This document shows positions 21,736-32,164 of a stretch of 64,000 nucleotides of DNA, in pieces. Source of the stretch: Ascochyta rabiei (taxonomy: Eukaryota > Ascomycota > Dothideomycetes > Pleosporales > Didymellaceae); the NCBI RefSeq assembly GCF_004011695.2, contig NC_082415.1, positions 744,001-808,000 on the forward strand, read 5' to 3'. The notes beneath the pieces are model-generated. The model was not told the DNA's origin and made no database searches. It worked only from the letters and a program-made list of their open reading frames with translations. Made by a program: the position numbers and the translations under genes. Each line of letters begins with the position of its first letter. Positions within the stretch are counted from its first letter, which is position 1.

Positions 21736-24398
21736 TCATCTTATCAGGTTTGCAAGCCAGATGGCCGCAGCAACGCCGCCTACTCTCCACATCATCTTCT
21801 TGTGCCCGTCGTGCTGGTCATGGCGACCTGTTTCTTTATCGCGTCCGACCTCGCCATCCGCACGGTGCCATCCTGGCAGTTCCATGACATCTCTATCCGC
21901 ACTCTCCCCTTCCTGCGCTTGATGTGCAGCTGGAGCTCGACCATATAGAAGCCACGCCGTAGACACCTTCGTAGCCTCATGTACCTTCCACGACAGCCAC
22001 ACGAATATCGGGGTCAAGATGACCAGATCGCGCCACTTGTCACCCAGGAACGTGCCGCTGCCATACCGAAATCCAACCCGGAGAAGCCCTTTACTGTCGC
22101 CAGCAAGCCAAATGTGCTGCGAGAGGAGATACAATTCGAAAGATATGCGGCCAAGCCAGGCGAACGATGCACTATACCGCGCTTGCAGAAAGCTAGTTGC
22201 GTTGCGGAGAATCACGAAAGAGAGAGCAGGAAGCCAGGCAATGTATGGCATCCACCAGTCGTAATCGTCTTTCCTCTTGAGTCGCCGTGTCATGATCCAG
22301 AAAGTCGGGATGGTGATGATGGCGGCCGCAAGAAGCAGAATCCGGTGGAGAAAAAAGTAGTGCTTCACAACGAAGCCAGCAGGGCCTAACTGTTTTTTCG
22401 ACGTATTAAGCACCAAATGGACTTTGATATGCAGCGCTGAAACAACGACTCCGAGAAAGACGATGTATCTGTTTATACAAAGGTGGTAACGCAGCTCGTC
22501 TACGTTCACATTTGCTCGGAAAGCGATATTGAAGAATGTAGCCAACATCTCAAGGATGCCTTGGACTTGACTGAACATCGTAACGAGCAGGGCCGCCAGC
22601 ACAACCTTGAAGACCAGCAGTCCAAAGCACTCGTTCCAACTTCGGTTGATCCTGAGCGTCAGATATATGATGATGAACCAGAAGGTAACCAAGGGCGCAA
22701 AATGGTAAGACGTATACGGCCTGTCCAGCGCGAGCGCAAGGAGCACGGGAGGGGTATTGAGGCGCAGTACGACGCCTAGAACGCGCTGGTAAGAGAAGTC
22801 GTTCGTTCGCAGGAAGTATGTTGCATGACCATAACCAGAGAGAAAGAGGTAGAGTGCAACAAATACACGAAACACCTTGTAAAAGTCCATGATGTCGGAC
22901 GCGCCAGTGTATGCGTACACGAGGACGTATATCTGCATCCACCCCTTGAACTCATCTGACTGATCTCGTGGTAGAAAAGGTGCCAATCGGACGGCGTTTT
23001 CGGACAAACGTGCCATGTTTTTTCTGACAGGTAACGAGACGTTCCGAATATTCATCAGGCAGACCAAGACAGCCGTACCTAGCATTACCCGGAAGTCGAC
23101 GTTAGCGAACTCTTTCGGAATCTTGTCGAAAATGTGGGTTCTGTCGGCGATGAAGCAATACACTGCAGCAAGCAAGAAGACAGCAAGCGTCTCAGATAGG
23201 AAGCTCAAAGTCCCGAGCTCTTGGAATTTGCGGCAGTAACGACCAAAAGAGACCAGGACGAAAAGGGACGACAAGACGAACGTCATTGTAAGTTGAATCG
23301 AATTCACGGGCCTGTAGGCACTGCAGCAGGTCCTGGTGAACGGATAGCCATGTTTCTGCGCCGCCTTTGCGTTGCATCGATAGTTGAGCACAACGTCAGC
23401 CATCTGGGTTGCAATGCGATCAGTAACATGTAAACCGCTCTCGCCGACCATTTCGGGCCACTTTGCCGTCATGTCCCGGTAGATCCAAGGTACGTTCAGT
23501 CCACGATTAGACCACAGCTGCAAATGGTCGTTCATAGCCCAGATTTTATTTTGCGAGATAGTGACTTCGCGTGACGGACTCAATCGATTGACCAAAGGGT
23601 CGGGAACTGGTGCAAAGAAAATCTGGTCATCCACTCCGTCCTTTCCATGCGCTCGTATGTTTGCTGGGCTTGTGAGGCGGTCGTGGGTGGTAGACATGAC
23701 TGCTGCGACGCGGTCGACTACGCGGTTGAAGGTCGGCAGGTACTCATCGCCCAGATGTCGAGCATGCCACAGTCCTCCGCCAATGAACAACAGCACCGAC
23801 CTCCTCTTGCCGTCGCTTGGCAGCATCTTCTCGCCTGCGCCTCGCGGCTTGTTCCTCTCCATGTACGCCTTCAGCTCTCCACTAAATTCGGTGCTGTTTA
23901 GCAACGGGTCCCATAAGAAAGTCAACCTTGCTCCGTCCTTCTCGAGATGTAGATCCTCATGCTTGTCAAGCTCTTGTTGCCGATCGGAGACCCACAAGCT
24001 GTCCAGCTTCTTCGCCGCAGCCCAGAAGACCTGGCGCACCGTTGTGTCGCCCACAAACAGCATCTGGCCATCCTCACTGCAGTCGGCCAGGTCGGACTTC
24101 GTATAATCGTGCAAGAGGCAGCCAGGCACTTGCCAGTTCTGGAAGGGTTTGCGTTCGGGACTGCGGTCGGGCGAGTCAAGCCATTGGCCCTGGTGGAGGA
24201 GTGCAGAGCACTTGTATAAGTCGGCAGTATCTAAAAGTACGTGAGCTGTGAGGTAGAGCGGACAGTGTGAGTGTGTCATGTACCATGGACCAGTCGTCGA
24301 TACACGTTTGCACAAACGACAGTGAGCAGAAGGAGCGGCGCAACCCTGCCAAGCACCTGGAGCAAGCTCGCAGGCCTCGCCAGCCTAAGTCGAAGCAT
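21736..24398 (-). CDS. CAS1: Cas1-type polysaccharide O-acetyltransferase
   Basis: Two exons (24398-24284 and 24230-21736; intron with GTACAT donor and TAG acceptor) give 869 aa. Exon 1 adds an N-terminal signal anchor (MLRLRLARPASLLQVLG, then PLLLLTVVC). Next comes a lumenal SGNH/PC-esterase-like domain with LFVGDTTVRQVFWAAA carrying the GDxxxR signature, then a Cas1p acyltransferase domain with about ten membrane spans (TMTFVLSSLFVLVSFG, GYGHATYFLRTNDFSY, GRISFELYLLSQHIWLAG). Relatives are Cryptococcus Cas1p, which O-acetylates glucuronoxylomannan, and human CASD1. It likely acetylates wall or secreted glycans in the Golgi. The first exon was placed because it supplies the expected N-terminal anchor and joins in phase to DTADLYKCSALL. 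The short polar C-terminus ends in another hydrophobic stretch. Confidence 0.93.
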
Positions 24399-25080
24399 TC
24401 TTATCGCTCATGTGACCTGTATGGCATCGAATCTCCCCGCAGTCGTCTTATAGAGGGCGGCGTGGTGTTGAAAGCGGTCGCGTGCTCTCCGCAGCGCAAA
24501 CAGCGCAGAAGACATATTAGGCGAAAGAGGCAGGGCAGAGCTGCAGGGGTACGGTGGAGTAACCATGCTGACTGCGTCTCCACTCGTGTGTTGCTTGCCT
24601 TGTCTGTAGGCGTCACTTCCATATTGAAGAAGCTGCCGCTTCCCGAGCCAAGGTGACGCGTGCGTGGGACGTGCTGCTGTGGAGCGCCTCTCAGCGGACC
24701 TGACAGAGATAAGCGGGCCATGAGTGCACCGACGGAAAGAGGCCGTAGGACGCTAGATAGAGCTCGAGCTTCAGTGTGCGAAGAAGCGTGCATGGGCAAA
24801 GGTGCGCGGTACCTGAATCGTGTCATGCATTAAACTGGAATACGAACGTGCCGCCGGGCCGGTGCGGCACGTCAGAGCAAACGCCCTTGCATGCCCTAGC
24901 TCGTTCATGTTCCAAGGCGAAGGTTACTGGTAAAGCTGGGCAAGTGTTCGAAACGCCTGAGATGACATTGAATCTTCACGCTACTCTTTTCCGTTTGTAC
25001 GTCTGGAACACGGCATACACAAAACCCTGCTCCCACATCCAACAACACACCTTTTCACCTCCTAGCACCCTCAGTCCATC
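24399..25080. other. intergenic, no gene recognised
   Basis: Lies between the 5' end of the CAS1 gene and the 3' end of the transporter gene, both on the minus strand. No element recognised. Confidence 0.55.
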
Positions 25081-26756
25081 CTACAACACGTACCTAAAAT
25101 ACCTATTCTCCTTATCCGTCAAGTCCATGAATGCCAGCTTGTCCCTCTCATCTTCATCCACAGGCAAGCCCTCTCTTTTCTTGTTCTCCATCCTGAGCAA
25201 CACATACAGCGCCACAGCTGCCACAATGGTGATACAATAGCAAATGATGAGCCCCGACCACAGTTCCGGGTAATGCTGCGCCTTGGTCTGACTCTTGATG
25301 AGCTGCGGCCCAACGATGTTGCCCACACAGTACGCCACGAAAATGGCCGCTGCCATGGTGCTCTTCTTCGTTGCGCCCGCAACATTGCTCATGCCTATAA
25401 CAATGGTCTGGCTAACAACGGCACCGAACGTGCCGATGATGGAATATCCTGCTACAGGCGTAGCAGCGTGGTGTGTCCATTTGCTTTTCCAGATCATGGC
25501 GCAGCCGGCGATGACAGGGAGGCAGTTGGCAATCAAGAGAACCAAGCGAATGTTGGGGATCTTGCTGGATAGATAGCCGGACAGAAGAATTGTGACAAGA
25601 CAAAGCGCTCCAAGAGGGAATTGCCAGAGGATGGATTCGAGGGTCGACCAGCCAAATGTACTCACAATGAGAGGGCCAAAGCCGGACACGGCGCCGTTGA
25701 CAGTATAGGCAGATGCCATGAGGATGAAAACGAGCCAGAGCTTGAGGTCCAGGACTGCTTCACGGAATTGCGACATTTTGATCTTCTGGCACCGTACGCC
25801 GGTCTGACCTTTACGGAGACGCTCGACAGCCACCATACGTTCTGCTGGCGTGAGGAACCATGCCGAGGCGGGTGAGTTGGGGATGAAGAAGCACCAGATG
25901 CCGAACAGGAAGGTAAGGCAACCGGCAAGGAGGTAGATATACTGCCATCTGCGGAGGGCGCCGCCGGTGATTTGAGCAAACCCGTAGTTGAGCGCACCGC
26001 CGATGATGGTGAACAGACCGGTCGAAGCGAACCACCTGCATGATGATCAGCGAAAGACGCTTGCTATGTTGTGGAGCGCAACATACCACGACTGTCTCAA
26101 AGCCTGTTCCTCCTGGGTGTAGTAGCCACTGACAATACACATGAAGCCCGTTGGAATGATGCTCTCGACAAAACCGAGAAAGAATCTCTGAGCATACAAG
26201 CCTTCATGAGTGGTTACGGCAGCTGTGAGCATACAGATAACCGCCCAGACAACCACTACACCACCAAGGATTCTCCCAATATTGAACCTTTGCAGCGCAA
26301 AAGTCATGGGATACAGGCCAGCCAGCATGCCGAAATAGAACATGGATGTTGCCCAGCTAAGTCGTTGGGTGCTAGTGGTAGGCGGCGTAGTGTGTGTGTT
26401 TACCACAGTCAGATTGAGGTCTTTCGTCATACCAAATAAGACTGCAGAACCGAGGATGGCCTTGTCGTAGTAGACCAAACCGTAACCTGGACATGTACAT
26501 AAATTTTGACTTCATGCACGCATGCTGGGGCCCTTAACATACCAACGATCATAGCTGGGATCAAAAACCAGTCAATTTTCCGAAGCACCTTGGCCTCGAC
26601 CGCAGGGTCCATCTCTCGTGCGTGCTCGCCCGCCAATCCAATAGCAACATCTTTGTCCAGAAAGACAGAGCTGGTGTGCGAGGCTAGAACGTGATCATCA
26701 TGAGGTGGCGAGCCAGATTCATGCACGCTCTTCTCGTGATCGTGGACGAAAGACAT
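25081..26756 (-). CDS. Dal5-family MFS transporter, TPP-riboswitch-linked (probable thiamine-related uptake)
   Basis: Three exons (26756-26543, 26486-26087, 26035-25081) give 522 aa, all phases consistent. It belongs to the allantoate/anion:cation symporter branch of the major facilitator superfamily: VLRKIDWFLIPAMIVGYGL before TM1, SMFYFGMLAGLYP, QRFFLGFVESIIPTGF, and the C-terminal half with GNIVGPQLIKSQ and LWSGLIICYC. Twelve membrane spans are expected and the length is normal. The family takes up allantoate, nicotinate, biotin precursors and pantothenate, so sequence alone does not give the substrate. The TPP riboswitch about 150 nt upstream of the start codon argues for thiamine or a thiamine precursor. 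Neurospora has a riboswitch-controlled transporter gene of this broad type (NCU01977, recalled). The start at 26756 gives the usual acidic cytosolic N-terminus; an in-frame upstream Met at 26831 lies in the leader. Confidence 0.92.
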
Positions 26757-26827
26757 GACTGTTGTACCTGAGTGGATTGAATAACAATCGATGAGCAGTG
26801 ACCGTTGCTCAGCAGAGTCTCGTGATA

Positions 26828-26908
26828 TCAAGTCTTATGGAGTGTCTCTTCGCACGCAAAAAGCCCTGTGCTAGTCAGTAGCAGCCTCCAAACCGGGGCG
26901 CAAAGCAT
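26828..26908 (-). other. upstream ORF beginning at the 3' edge of the riboswitch
   Basis: An ATG at 26908-26906, directly after the conserved 3' portion of the aptamer, opens a 26-codon frame (starting MLCAPVWRLL) ending in TGA at 26828, 71 nt before the transporter ATG. If the leader intron holding the aptamer is retained or only partly removed, scanning ribosomes would meet this ATG first. In Neurospora NMT1 the riboswitch works by exposing upstream ORFs through alternative splicing, so this is a plausible effector element. The peptide itself need not be functional. Confidence 0.55.
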
Positions 26909-26995
26909 GAAGTCCTTTCGCAGGCGTTAACCTGATCAAGTTCCGACCGTATTTCTCAGAACACTGCCCTCGCTCTGCACTTCCGTCTGGGGCTG
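26906..26995 (-). promoter_or_regulatory. TPP (THI-box) riboswitch aptamer in the transporter leader
   Basis: Minus-strand RNA carries, in order, GGAAGUGC (26983-26976), CUGAGAAAUAC (26959-26949), GAACUUGAUC (26943-26934), a P5 stem CAGG/CCUG (26934-26931 with 26924-26921) around UUAACG-like loop sequence, and GCGAAAGGACUUC. These are the conserved pyrimidine- and pyrophosphate-binding elements of the thiamine pyrophosphate aptamer, the only riboswitch class established in fungi. A GGUC/GACU P4 is possible and GAAGU/ACUUC is a candidate P1. A longer helix (26995-26985 with about 26894-26883, 11 pairs and one bulge) could enclose the element. P2/P3 pairing was not settled by eye. High intracellular TPP would be expected to lower transporter expression. 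Confidence 0.9.
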
Positions 26996-27055
26996 ATGGA
27001 AGCGTAGAAGCGATGGACAGCGAACACCGGCCTCATGCGATCGCTTATGAAATAC

Positions 27056-28147
27056 CTTGATCAGGCTGTTGTCTGCTGTGTGACTGCATCTTGGCTACCT
27101 TGCCGTACTTTAGGGATCTTGACAGGACGGTGATTGAGGAAGACAGACGATGGGAGGGTGATGAAAGATTTTCGATGAGTCTTCCGCTCAAGACGGCGAG
27201 CGAGATGTCATTCTTCGCTAGCGTTCGTTGCCAGACGCCTCGAGGCACGAGGCCGCCGAGCGTACTGGGCATCCCCGGTTACTGGTGGGTTTGAACGGGC
27301 AATGCATACACAGTTCCGTCGTTGAGATTCTTGATTGGACGCCTTGAGTGCATGCTCGAAGTTAAGATGGCCGGATTGCTGCGCTAGAGACCAGGATTGG
27401 TTAGCATGGATGATGTAATCTCTCCAGCCTTGAGAAAACTTCGTTGCGAGCTGCGTGGCTTGAGTGCTATCACCACTCGTTGATAATACAATACCGTCAG
27501 CCTGTGCGAACCTGCTGTCATCATGATGAAAGACGGATCGGATGTTCGCGGGGATGATGGCTTTGGTAGACCGGTCTCTTGCCTCGCTCGATCTGCTGCT
27601 GTATCTGCAGACCTTGAGCTGGATGCACTCTTGCTTCTTCATGAAGTAACTGCTGTACGAGACAAGAACAACACCGCGACGATCTTTGAGTGCGGAGCCG
27701 CCTGATCCATGTGTCGGACTTCGCAATTTATCCGTCGAGACATATTTGCTGACCACTGTGGTCTTCACATTCATATAAACACGCCGAGTTTTGTGTGAAC
27801 ATAGGAATGTGTGTATTGATAAAAAATTCAGACAGGTTGTCGCTCTGTGAAAATCCCTTCGCTCCATGTTGCCTCGAACTCCGTAAGGAAACACCGGCCG
27901 TGAAGATACCAACCCTCCGTCCCAGTCGGCCAAGTCCGAATACCATCTGTGCAACAGCGTGGCAATGCTCGCTCGCTTCAAACGCCAACAGCCCGAGCCA
28001 AAGTCGTAGCTTCAAAAGTGCGAACCCCATATGTACATTGCGTTGTCTCTCATACCCAGTTGAGAGGCGATATGCTAAGAGATGGGGTATAGTTAGATCC
28101 ATGAAAACAGGAAACAATATGGTTGGGAAATACAATGATGATGATGC
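27056..28147. other. promoter region; unrecognised 257-codon frame
   Basis: Upstream region of the riboswitch-bearing transporter and 3' flank of the SSH4-like gene. A minus-strand frame at 27208-27981 (257 codons) matches no family I know and shows no low-complexity or membrane pattern; I do not call it a gene. Confidence 0.45.
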
Positions 28148-29868
28148 TCATCGTGGCCCTCCGCGGGGCGTTCGAGACGTCTGCGTGGAGCTTCGCACCC
28201 TGATTGTGGGCGGTCGAATATGTGGTGCAGCAGCGACAGCGGCGTCGTAGCTGGGTAGAGGCCGCGCTGACCCTGGCTCCTCCTGCTGGTTTTGCAAGAG
28301 CGGTGCTTGCTCGCGTTCTTCCCAGTAGTCGCGCATGCGGCGGCCAGCCTCGAGGTTGGGCGACCCAAGAGGACTGGTGTATTCTGGTGGGAATTCCCCG
28401 GGTTGTAGGAATCCGAGTCCACGAGCGGTCTCATGAGCTACATCGTGCACATTGCTGGCCTCTGCACTTGTTCCTTCGCCAATGTCTTCGTTCGAGTCCA
28501 CCAAGCTGAATGCTGCCAGGGAGATGTCAGTGGGGCTGCGTTGAGGACCAGGGCTTGTGGGTTGATTACGTCCAAGACGCACTTGCTGGCTACTAGATCG
28601 TGCATGTCCATAACCCGCGGAAATGTAGTTGCCAGCCATGCCTTCCCTGATGCCGTCACGACCAGAATCCAGGAGAATCGATCCCTGTTCGCTGCCGTAT
28701 GGTGGTGGCGGTGCCAAGCTGCCAGTCTGTGGGGCAAGGCCCCATTTCTTTACGTTGGCCTCGATGAAGACAAAGCCCATCTGTCCGAAGTTGACGTGTA
28801 CCTGGCAAGGTCCTTGAGCGCCGACTGTAGGGAAGAAGTTCTGCGTCTTAAGACCGTGTGCAACATCATCGAGCTTCTTGCCGTTGCGAGTAAAGAAGAC
28901 GGTCCCGGTGCGAGGCCTGTAGCCAACTCCGATAACATCGCCCTGGACGTAGGCTGGCCCGTAAGCGGAGGGTGTGAAAGGCTGGTTGTAGCGTCGGTTG
29001 CCGTTGGATCCGTACGAGATGGAGGACTTGTGGTAGCCTGGACGTTGGTCAGTATGTGAGATGACCAACACGAGCAGTTGCCAGACATACCTGGTAATCT
29101 GAACAGCGGATACGGCTTGGTTGTGACGCCAATCGCAATGCTTGTGTTCTCTGGCTTCTCGTAGATCTTAGCCTCCCAGTAGTAAACTTCGTTCTGCTTC
29201 GGTATCGGTAGGTTGCTTTGGACGCTGCACTCCGAGTCGAAGAACTCAATCTCAGTTCGGCCTTCAACGAAGCAATTGGCAATCTCCAGCTCTGGTTCAA
29301 ACTCCCACGCAGAGACGCCTTTCTCTTGGATGGCGAGGAACTGCGAGAGGGATATGTCGGTTTGCACAGACTCGGGCGGGTTGACCTGTACGAAAGCTGG
29401 AAGGGGTTAGAAAGGGGCTCTTGTCACGCGTCCAACCAAGGCACGCTTACCTTTTGCGCGCAGGTACTCTGCCGCCTGCAGATCGTCCATGTCCTCCAGC
29501 GCCTCGGCCTCCTCCTTGGCGAACTGCTGCTCATCGTCGTACTCGCCCGGCCGTGCGATGCGGTCGAGGAAGATGCGACCCTGTTGCGTGTAGCGGAAGT
29601 AGTAGACAATGGCAAAGACAAGGAAACAGAAGCCTGCAGCGCCGAGGACCGAGAAGACGCCAATCATGATGCCTTTCGCAGTCGACCCCAGGCCGCTGTT
29701 GTCATGGTAGCGCGCATTCCGTAAGGCGTCTCTGGAGGACGAGTGAAGGGCACGTGCGGCGTCGGCGAGCACGGTGGGCGTTGCAGAGGGCGCGTGGTCG
29801 ACGGGAAGGTACGACTTGGATAGTGTCGTCGGCGGCAGGACGACCTGCAGCGGTTCCTGCGGCAACAT
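28148..29868 (-). CDS. SSH4: Ssh4/Ear1-like ubiquitin ligase adaptor with SPRY domain
   Basis: Three exons (29868-29451, 29396-29091, 29037-28148) give 537 aa. Order: short lumenal N-terminus; one membrane span (GIMIGVFSVLGAAGFCFLVF, about residues 67-88); acidic juxtamembrane segment; SPRY domain spanning all three exons (WEFEPELEIANCFVEGRTEI, YYWEAKIYEKPENTSIAIGV, GTVFFTRNGKKLDD, FFPTVGAQGPCQVHVNFG); and a long proline-rich tail with a PPEY motif (GEFPPEYTSPLG) and LPSYDA. Yeast Ssh4 and Ear1 have this same plan, sit in endosome and vacuole membranes, and use PPxY motifs to bring the ligase Rsp5 to transporters for ubiquitination and degradation. The neighbouring transporter is a conceivable type of client, but adjacency alone proves nothing. 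Confidence 0.92.
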
Positions 29869-32164
29869 GGTGGCGTGCGGGGGGTCTGCAGCCGGTGCTG
29901 TTCAACAGCTGAGGAGGGCGACGGGGCAAAAGGCACTGCCAGCAGGCGCAGCGGCGCTCGTGGTGCGACGGGTGCGACGGGTGCGGTGAAGGAGCGCGCT
30001 CGGCGTGGATGCGTCGACCCAGCAGCGGGGATCTATGCTTGGGTTGGTGTGACGCAACGGAGGTCCGCGGGAGTCGCCGGCGACGAGATCAGATGGGACG
30101 GGATGGCGATGTGGGCGGCGATGGACTGGCTGCACTCGCAGGCGAAGGCGGAGGGAGCGCGACGGCGGGGCAGGAGGGGACGGGGGAGCTGGTGGTGCTG
30201 TGTGTTGCGTGTCGTGGTCGTGGTCGTGAATGGCCACTACGTGAGAGTGGAGGTGCCTGACAGCTCTGCTTGCTTGGCTTGCCACCTCCAACTTCTGTCC
30301 CGGCACTACGCCTGAAAGATCCGCAACACTGCCGAAAATCCCGAATCTCGAGCCGCCGTCGATCAGCAAACTGAAGCGGTGCACTGTACAGGACAGTGGG
30401 CGAGAGTGCACGGGAGTCAAGGAACGGCCTCAGCGTGCGAGCCGTCGGCCAACAGGTGTACCTACGTATCCGGGCCACACGAGGCTTGGGCCGGAAGCGG
30501 CGGTTTCGCATGCAACTATAACGTTACGATCCAGGCCTACCCAGCCATGAGCTACTGCGACTGCAACGCGTCTTGAAAGATAACGCAGACACGACTTGGT
30601 ACCTATGGTACGCCTTGCTTTGGATCGCGCAACGCACCTTGCAGCGTGAAATTGCACTTGTGCCACGTGCTGTCCTCTGTCCTCCAACTGCAGACGCGCA
30701 CACGCGTGGGAGCGGCTCGGCCTCGTGCTTTGAAGGCATCCAGTTGTCCAGTTGTCTTACAGTTGCCATGAAATCTGAAACACCGTTTCGCAGAGCCGCC
30801 GAAGGGGCGCTTCCTATGAATAGTCGGTCTGTCAGACTGCCGTTACAGAGCTAAATAGTGGGTATTGCAGACATGCCCGTGCACAGCTGCGCGGATAGAT
30901 ACCTGGACATGCTTGCGCGTGCTGTTACGACTGGCGGTACCTCAGAGCAGGCGCACGTCACTGGCACACTTCCGGGGTCGTTATCGAAGACCATCGAGCA
31001 ACAGCTCCTTGGCCAGGTATGGACAGCAACAGTATATAAGCTGTCCTGCACAGTGCTAAACACAAACGACGTACAGTCTTGCACTGTTTATGTCGGTCGC
31101 CAGCATGAGTGCCTGGTAGATCAGTCAGACGGCCATAGCAACTACCTTTTTCTTCTGCGACGAGTGCCAGAACAGCTGTTGAATGGAAATGGTCCACCCC
31201 AAGTCAAACATTCGATCGAAGGAGGAGTGTCAGAACAGCTGTTGAATGGAAACGGTCCCCCCCAAGTCAAACATTAGATCGAAGGAGGAGTGTCAGAACA
31301 GCTGTTGAATGGAAATGGTCCCCCCCCCCCAAGTCAAACATTCGACCAAAGTCGGAGGGACAATGCAGACGCAGTGCAACGTACAAGGAGCCAGTCCGCT
31401 ACACGTCAGATGTGTCATGGCTGCTCGGTGAGCCCTACACTGCGCAACATGGCAGTGCGTGCATCTCGAGAGACGCCCGAGGCTTGCTGTGCTTGTCAAA
31501 GTCCAGGCAGTGAGTGCTTCGTAGAAACAATGAGTAGCAGCACATGGTCGCAGTTCACTCGACCAATCCGATCAGGGAGGTGGGCCTGATTAGCGCACTT
31601 CACAATTCTACGCCTATCTGCAGTGCATACAGCTCGAGGAAGCCACACGTCTTCGCCTCAGATATCGTCCGTCTGCGCTCTGTTCTCACTTGCTTGCACC
31701 TTTGTCGCACCGCAGCCTCGATTTCTACCGTTGCGCCTCCGCGCCGCACAACAGCCCCAGGGCCGTGTCTCCTTCGTACCCCTCCAAAGCTGCACCTACT
31801 CTACCGTCCCCCGCGTCACTCTACGCAAACTCGCAACCACAACGCACGCCGAATTTCCTAGACAACTCGACCATCGTATGACTTCAAAATGATTGTAGCC
31901 TTGTAAAACGCATCGACACTAGGAGCTGGTACGTCTGCTGTTCGATCGTCCACTCACTCTTTGTGCTGCTTCCCTCGTGCGCATGGCAAGGCTAACCACG
32001 GTTGCACCAACAGAACCAGCTTGAGGCGCCACTACCATCACCCACATCTTCATCTCCCCTCGCCCAAGAGTTGTCCCCTTCCTCCTCTCAGGAGGCGTGC
32101 CATAGTTGCGCAGCCCAACAAACCTCGACCCTTCCCCGCACCACACAGTAATCTGCTTTTCGCC
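29869..32164. other. intergenic between SSH4-like gene and KAP104
   Basis: A 2.3-kb divergent promoter region without a recognisable gene. The part near 29900-30300 is GC-rich and gives long meaningless frames on both strands. It contains the 63-bp tandem repeat annotated separately. The last 500 bases are C/T-rich leader for KAP104. Confidence 0.55.
31168..31345. repeat. 63-bp tandem repeat, nearly three copies
   Basis: Copies start at 31168, 31231 and 31294, each beginning CAGAACAGCTGTTGAATGG and containing CAAGTCAAACATT and GATCGAAGGAGGAGTGT. The third copy has an expanded C run and lacks the last segment. Copies differ by only a few substitutions, so the duplication is recent. Each unit contains the E-box palindrome CAGCTG. 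Confidence 0.95.

Follow-up and report, generated by a model that had tools for sequence, protein, structure and literature searches.

In Neurospora crassa, regulation of NMT1 by its TPP riboswitch is described, in the accessible part of the source, as driven by pairing of the P4/P5 strand of the aptamer with a stretch adjoining the proximal donor, and the layout of two donors around the start of an upstream open reading frame (uORF) is there assigned to Type I (PMC5882874). A second N. crassa gene, NCU01977, carries a validated TPP riboswitch and encodes a Dur31-type sodium:solute symporter (PMC5997356, accessible text). In this Type II case, which works by long-distance pairing, the riboswitch is carried by a long intron of the coding region and makes use of a P1' strand (PMC5882874, PMC5997356). 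The fungal targets named in the accessible portions of the literature are THI4, NMT1, DUR31/urea, nucleoside/NCS1 (the Aspergillus nidulans AN4526.2 group), THI9/amino acid, MCP and sugar (sources including PMC5882874, PMC5997356 and PMC11683625); the MCP group belongs to the MFS family and comes from two yeasts, and a further 12 sequences are given with unclassified targets (PMC11683625). Nothing in these portions, nor in literature searches on the subject, joins a TPP riboswitch with Dal5 or allantoate. We therefore regard Dal5, provisionally, as a new target family of the TPP riboswitch. The riboswitch class and its mechanism are already known; what is new here is the target gene and the intron-exact copy that precedes it.

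Saccharomyces cerevisiae THI73 is a Dal5-subfamily transporter repressed by thiamine, and we know of no riboswitch in this gene. It is called a low-affinity thiamine transporter in the accessible text of PMC4260697. Its likeness to the gene described here lies in the Dal5 type and in thiamine control, and we make no claim of orthology between the two.

The locus lies in a window of 64,000 nt (the whole stretch of Ascochyta rabiei DNA analysed), in the leader of a minus-strand gene for a Dal5-type MFS transporter. A sequence-only reading had placed a eukaryotic TPP riboswitch there, a proposal that sequence and predicted structure both support. The core strings it relied on are present on the minus strand (CTGAGAAATAC from 26959, GAACTTGATC, the CAGG/CCTG of P5, then GCGAAAGGA), and the CUGAGA junction motif is thus found together with the P4/L5/P5 core. 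The spacing of about 150 nt to the start codon also holds: from the end of the aptamer at 26905 to the transporter ATG at 26756 it is 148 nt. The interval proposed, 26906..26995, does lie within the aptamer but misses its 5' half (P1, P2 and the 5' arm of a long P3), which reaches 43 nt further 5'. Likewise, the appeal to a Neurospora transporter is valid as a precedent for the riboswitch but not for the gene, since NCU01977 is a Dur31-type sodium:solute symporter and no relative of Dal5 (PMC5997356, accessible text).

The expectation of a covariance-model score well above the gathering threshold was not borne out. The full-length RF00059 alignment at 26984-26896 (minus strand) reaches 37.8 bits, with E 6.4e-5 when 5 kb was scanned and 1.2e-4 genome-wide, against a gathering score of 54.3, and an Rfam scan of the window returned no TPP match at that threshold. 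Searching the 40.9-Mb genome with RF00059 at E 0.001, with 49 of 1528 first-look candidates scored, gave five matches, every one below the gathering score: NMT1 (50.6 bits), SSF (45.8), NCS1 (39.7), the Dal5-type gene of the window (37.8) and THI4 (36.8). The lowest score of the genome therefore belongs to THI4, a classic target. The frames downstream of the other four hits match NMT1 (PF09084), an SSF sodium:solute symporter (PF00474), an NCS1-type permease (PF02133) and Thi4 (PF01946), so that, with the MFS gene of the window, all five matches adjoin gene kinds that fit a thiamine regulon. The gathering score is a detection cut-off rather than a defining property of a TPP riboswitch; a long P3 is reported to cause poor detection, and RF00059 to truncate the fungal P3, in the accessible text of PMC11683625. 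A core pattern occurs at exactly five places in the genome, the same five as the RF00059 matches, with 0 matches for a reversed control, a result that speaks for rarity and not for independent discovery because these five sites were themselves the source of the pattern. Collections of prokaryote and virus contigs gave 0 and 0 matches to the core pattern, and protein scans of them for relatives of the transporter gave 28 and 12 pattern matches respectively, none of which was confirmed; as these collections hold prokaryotes and viruses, such searches are uninformative on fungi.

The full aptamer, delimited by the RF00059 match, by folding and by pair comparison with the copy at the NCS1 gene, occupies 26905..27038 of the minus strand. 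The short-P3 Rfam model misplaces the 5' half, and the well-folding 5' strands of P1, P2 and P3 begin at 27038. P1 joins 27038-27032 to 26912-26905 (GCAUGAG with CUUCAUGC), P2 joins 27031-27028 to 26949-26946 and the long P3 joins 27022-26995 to 26987-26962; the CUGAGA junction segment (26959-26954) is followed by P4 (26940-26938/26917-26915) and P5 (26934-26930/26925-26921). Folded without constraint, the 134-nt aptamer reaches -56.4 kcal/mol, with a z of -4.08 against 200 dinucleotide shuffles, none of them as stable. This minimum-energy fold pairs CUGAGA, which counts against the aptamer reading. When CUGAGA is kept free all five helices, P1 to P5, form at -53.9 kcal/mol, 2.5 weaker than the minimum. 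The NCS1 aptamer lies 3.55 sd below its shuffles (0 as stable) and that of THI4 2.93 sd below (1 as stable). Of the 48 gap-free pairs in the window structure, the NCS1 copy can form 45 as well. Among the 42 pairs common to the two folds, 33 are unchanged, 5 have changed on one side and 4 on both sides, all of these last in P3; as a control, shifting the partners against each other by 1 to 4 positions leaves only 18 to 27 pairs. These counts come from an alignment with two gaps, one set by hand and the other by MAFFT, and two sequences are few for covariation. On the combined grounds of sequence and modelled structure, we classify the element as a eukaryotic TPP riboswitch that would be expected to bind TPP.

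The aptamer sits within a predicted 5'UTR intron of 243 nt (26866..27108, minus strand), with GT at 27108 and AG ending at 26866, and this is the stretch held in common with the intron of the NCS1 gene. Its putative distal 5' splice site, S1 (27107..27108), reads AA/GTACGG, where the slash marks the splice point; GTACGG is also found in NCS1, and GTATGG stands at the like position of the THI4 leader. We take GTACGG to be an imperfect match to the donor consensus, which counts against the splicing reading, as does a second donor-like GTAGCC at 27098. The uORF starts with the ATG at 27089 and, spliced from the proximal donor S2 to 26866, would read MQSHSRQQPDQGLFACEETLHKT and stop at 26828 (26828..27089); in the NCS1 copy the uORF reads MQTSSRTSPDQGPS. 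The putative S2 (27054..27055) reads CAAG/GTATTT, and S2 is a site that the NCS1 copy shares. Towards the 3' end lies CTACTGACTAG (26871..26881, with CTGAC at 26878-26874), identical in NCS1, which we label branch-site-like on what we take to be the branch consensus, followed by the predicted 3' splice site CACAG/GGC (26866..26867; CATAG/GGC in NCS1).

Splicing from S1 is predicted to remove the uORF ATG, and splicing from S2 to retain a 23-codon uORF ending 71 nt before the main ATG. The leader of 109 nt between acceptor and transporter ATG contains no ATG, and in the 150 nt examined before S1 there is one, at a distance of 103 nt. An alternative 3' splice site, CACTCAG/GTACAAC (26768..26769), is a further candidate by sequence, and its predicted use with S2 would join the uORF in frame to the main ORF and yield an N-terminally extended transporter. 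Judged by its sequence, then, the leader has the Type I layout, with two donors flanking the uORF start and an acceptor downstream of the aptamer.

The Type I likeness extends to the proximal donor. The last 10 exon bases before S2, CCTGATCAAG (27056..27065, minus strand), are an exact complement of the P4/P5 strand CTTGATCAGG of the aptamer. When 770 upstream start positions were compared as partners for the 16-nt P4/P5 strand, the S2 complement came out strongest for the window gene, at -19.4 kcal/mol (mean -4.6, sd 2.6), and likewise for the NCS1 gene, at -18.6 kcal/mol (mean -4.3, sd 2.5). In a wider scan, which tried 40-mers across 3.4 kb as partners for a P4/P5 strand of 45 nt, the top position again went to the stretch that ends at S2, at -34.2 kcal/mol (mean -17.0, sd 4.0), although the strongest of the unrelated places came to -30.2 kcal/mol. 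In the NMT1 leader of the same genome a GTATTT donor follows about 20 nt after the end of the best P4/P5 partner (-14.7), in agreement with the published NMT1 mechanism, and for the SSF gene, taken to be DUR31-like, no strong partner was found among the upstream positions, the best reaching -8.8. The best partner in the THI4 leader (-16.6) lies about 425 nt before CUGAGA, about 220 nt on the 5' side of the candidate S1 rather than at the candidate S2, so that a masking model is not simply transferable to every leader of this genome. In the THI4 upstream region an 11-nt stretch exactly complementary to the THI4 P4/P5 strand, ATCCAGATCAA, occurs at sense position 1104 of the extracted sequence (L005), on the 5' side of the candidate donors and about 420 nt before CUGAGA; it may be either a chance occurrence or a distal control element.

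The window gene thus resembles N. crassa NMT1, as given in the accessible text of PMC5882874, in its 5'UTR intron, its two donors around a uORF start and its P4/P5 complement at the proximal donor, and differs from it in its target gene and in being a switch predicted from sequence. With NCU01977 it shares a TPP aptamer at a transporter gene. It seems likely that the element is a TPP riboswitch in the 5'UTR intron of a Dal5-type gene that follows the alternative-splicing logic of Neurospora NMT1. In this model, the P4/P5 strand CUUGAUCAGG would pair, in the absence of TPP, with CCUGAUCAAG at S2 and mask that donor, resulting in use of the distal S1, loss of the uORF start with the intron, and production of the transporter. 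Conversely, with TPP bound, the P4/P5 strand would be locked within the aptamer and S2 left free; its use would retain the uORF in the mRNA, and translation of the transporter would drop. Transporter production would accordingly stop at sufficient vitamin B1, which suggests a thiamine-linked substrate. Against such a switch, a modelling study questions, in its accessible part, whether the aptamers of nucleoside transporters retain a response to TPP (PMC8786325).

The closest described group is that of the nucleoside/NCS1-type riboswitches (TPPsw-NUC), exemplified by A. nidulans AN4526.2, to which, by its family, the NCS1 gene of this genome (contig C4) probably belongs. The introns of the window gene and of this NCS1 gene are identical at 202 of 254 aligned positions (80%), nearly equal in length from S1 to acceptor (243 and 242 nt), and alike in aptamer, uORF start, S1, S2, branch-like site and acceptor. 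The window copy differs in preceding an unrelated gene, NCS1 permeases and MFS proteins being different families, and in standing 109 nt before its ATG as compared with the 7 nt that separate the NCS1 acceptor from the first ATG of its open frame. The introns align with a local score of 235 against a shuffled maximum of 27. For the 100-nt flanks the scores are 13 (upstream) and 12 (downstream), where shuffles average 15.4 and 13.7 (278 and 267 of 300 letter shuffles as high), and global alignment of these flanks finds identity of 37/100 and 23/100 just outside the splice sites. Within the intron, identity runs at 16/19 from S1 to the uORF ATG, 24/34 from the uORF to S2, 12/17 from S2 to P1, 16/17 over P1-P2, 36/61 in P3, 54/55 from CUGAGA to the P1 3' strand, 18/23 on to the branch site and 15/16 on to the acceptor.

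BLASTN of 9.9 kb around the NCS1 gene against the whole window gave a single match at E <=0.01, at 27110-26860, and a DNA search of the organism's own genome for further copies of the intron returned the window itself and the NCS1 locus only. In a search for a former common neighbourhood, the window showed no match to NCS1, nor did the 9.9 kb around the NCS1 gene show one to Dal5. The 5' part (S1 to before CTGAGA) was also compared among the four Type I-like introns, of which Dal5 and NCS1 are the paralogous pair: the Dal5-NCS1 pair scores 84 (shuffled maximum 27) and NCS1-THI4 35 (maximum 25); Dal5-THI4 is marginal (25, with 1 of 300 shuffles as high), and NMT1 is indistinguishable from chance against each of the other three (12 to 25 of 300 shuffles as high). 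All six intron pairs exceed all 300 shuffles once the aptamer core is included; given the 5'-part scores of the THI4 and NMT1 pairs, we do not claim that the four introns share descent outside the aptamer. As a separate observation, positions 1-900 of the sequence upstream of the NCS1 gene (L003, contig C4) have a G+C content of 0.42-0.44 and TpA/ApT ratios of 1.7-2.2, as compared with ratios of <=1.0 over 24001-30000 of the window. Repeat-induced point mutation leaves a bias of this kind, and the region upstream of the NCS1 gene may contain a decayed repeat.

We infer from these comparisons that copying carried a riboswitch-bearing intron from one transporter gene to another, unrelated one. 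The direction would most likely be from NCS1 to Dal5, on the single ground that the nucleoside/NCS1 group is a known riboswitch target. We tentatively propose, at somewhat under an even chance, that the complete switch (donors, uORF start, aptamer, branch site and acceptor) was copied, from one splice site to the other, out of the NCS1 gene into the Dal5 leader as a self-contained spliceosomal intron, which would have given vitamin B1 control in one step. To judge from titles and the beginnings of abstracts, the papers found on riboswitches and intron transposition concern other subjects. Both introns could instead descend from one larger duplicated stretch of promoter and leader, whose flanks decayed as selection kept the intron, a possibility that we also place a little short of even. 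Under such a duplication the splice-site-exact boundary would be an effect of selection and not of the way of moving; the less constrained parts of the intron have indeed diverged as well (P3 and the stretch from the uORF to S2), and the age of the copies is not datable from one genome. However, these diverged parts still align, whereas identity falls away immediately outside the splice sites, and at E 0.01 the window has nothing else in common with the 9.9 kb around NCS1. On the 3' side the NCS1 open frame starts so soon after its acceptor that there is little flank to decay.

The contrast between the almost invariant segment from CUGAGA to the P1 3' strand and the divergent P3 would also be expected if the riboswitch were ancestral to the Dal5 gene and had come to resemble the NCS1 intron through later gene conversion. 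The transporter group does look old, relatives of about 70% identity or more being found in many Pezizomycotina (among the best 120 of 758). Constraint on the ligand pocket yields the same identity pattern, however, and no Dal5 target is among those named in the accessible literature on TPP riboswitches; we consider gene conversion unlikely. Still less probable, in our estimation, is that the window copy is a decayed relic which no longer binds TPP or steers splicing. Its RF00059 score below the gathering threshold would fit such a relic, as would the report, in the accessible text of PMC9544697, that diatom thiamine genes are not thiamine-regulated despite predicted riboswitches. Against this, the core has a single difference from the NCS1 copy in 55 positions, P3 contains compensatory changes, and the splice signals and the S2 complement have been kept.

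The gene downstream (25081..26756, minus strand) is modelled as a Dal5-type MFS transporter of 522 aa with introns at 26542-26487 and 26086-26036. A further coding intron at about 26404-26357 was considered and rejected: of four donors tried, the one that keeps the frame lacks a GT start, and the stretch is read as coding because most of the relatives listed have similar protein sequence there. The closest of the relatives listed, P0001 from Ascochyta lentis, also has 522 aa and is 94% identical. The search scored only the 7998 candidates sharing most words, and the best 120 of its 758 relatives are 69 to 94% identical, with 'allantoate' in the visible part of at least 16 names. MFS_1 matches P0001 at 113.5 bits and the last exon of the window gene at 48.4 bits. 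Dal5 belongs to the TIGR00893 (2A0114) class of anion:cation symporters; TIGR00893 is the only NCBIfam model to match P0001 at E 1e-5, at 144.2 bits and so below its cut-off of 395, and we therefore do not assign a substrate by family. The best-scoring paralogue within the genome is 32% identical, and a search of solved structures gave no sequence match to the transporter at E 0.001. The neighbouring minus-strand frames match a Cas1p-type 10-TM acyltransferase (PF07779, 21736-24315) and a SPRY domain (PF00622, 28148-29071); on the opposite strand, about 460 nt upstream of the riboswitch intron, lies the H/ACA snoRNA snR36 (RF01242, 27572-27745, 52.6 bits against a gathering score of 43).

Through this analysis the predicted vitamin B1 regulon of a Pleosporales fungus gains a Dal5-type transporter, and thiamine or a precursor becomes a candidate substrate for a transporter group that is widely conserved. 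The intron-exact likeness before unrelated genes provides a testable case of eukaryotic riboswitch control spreading through intron copying. If true, such copying would explain the presence of the TPP riboswitch in many unrelated families of fungal transporters.
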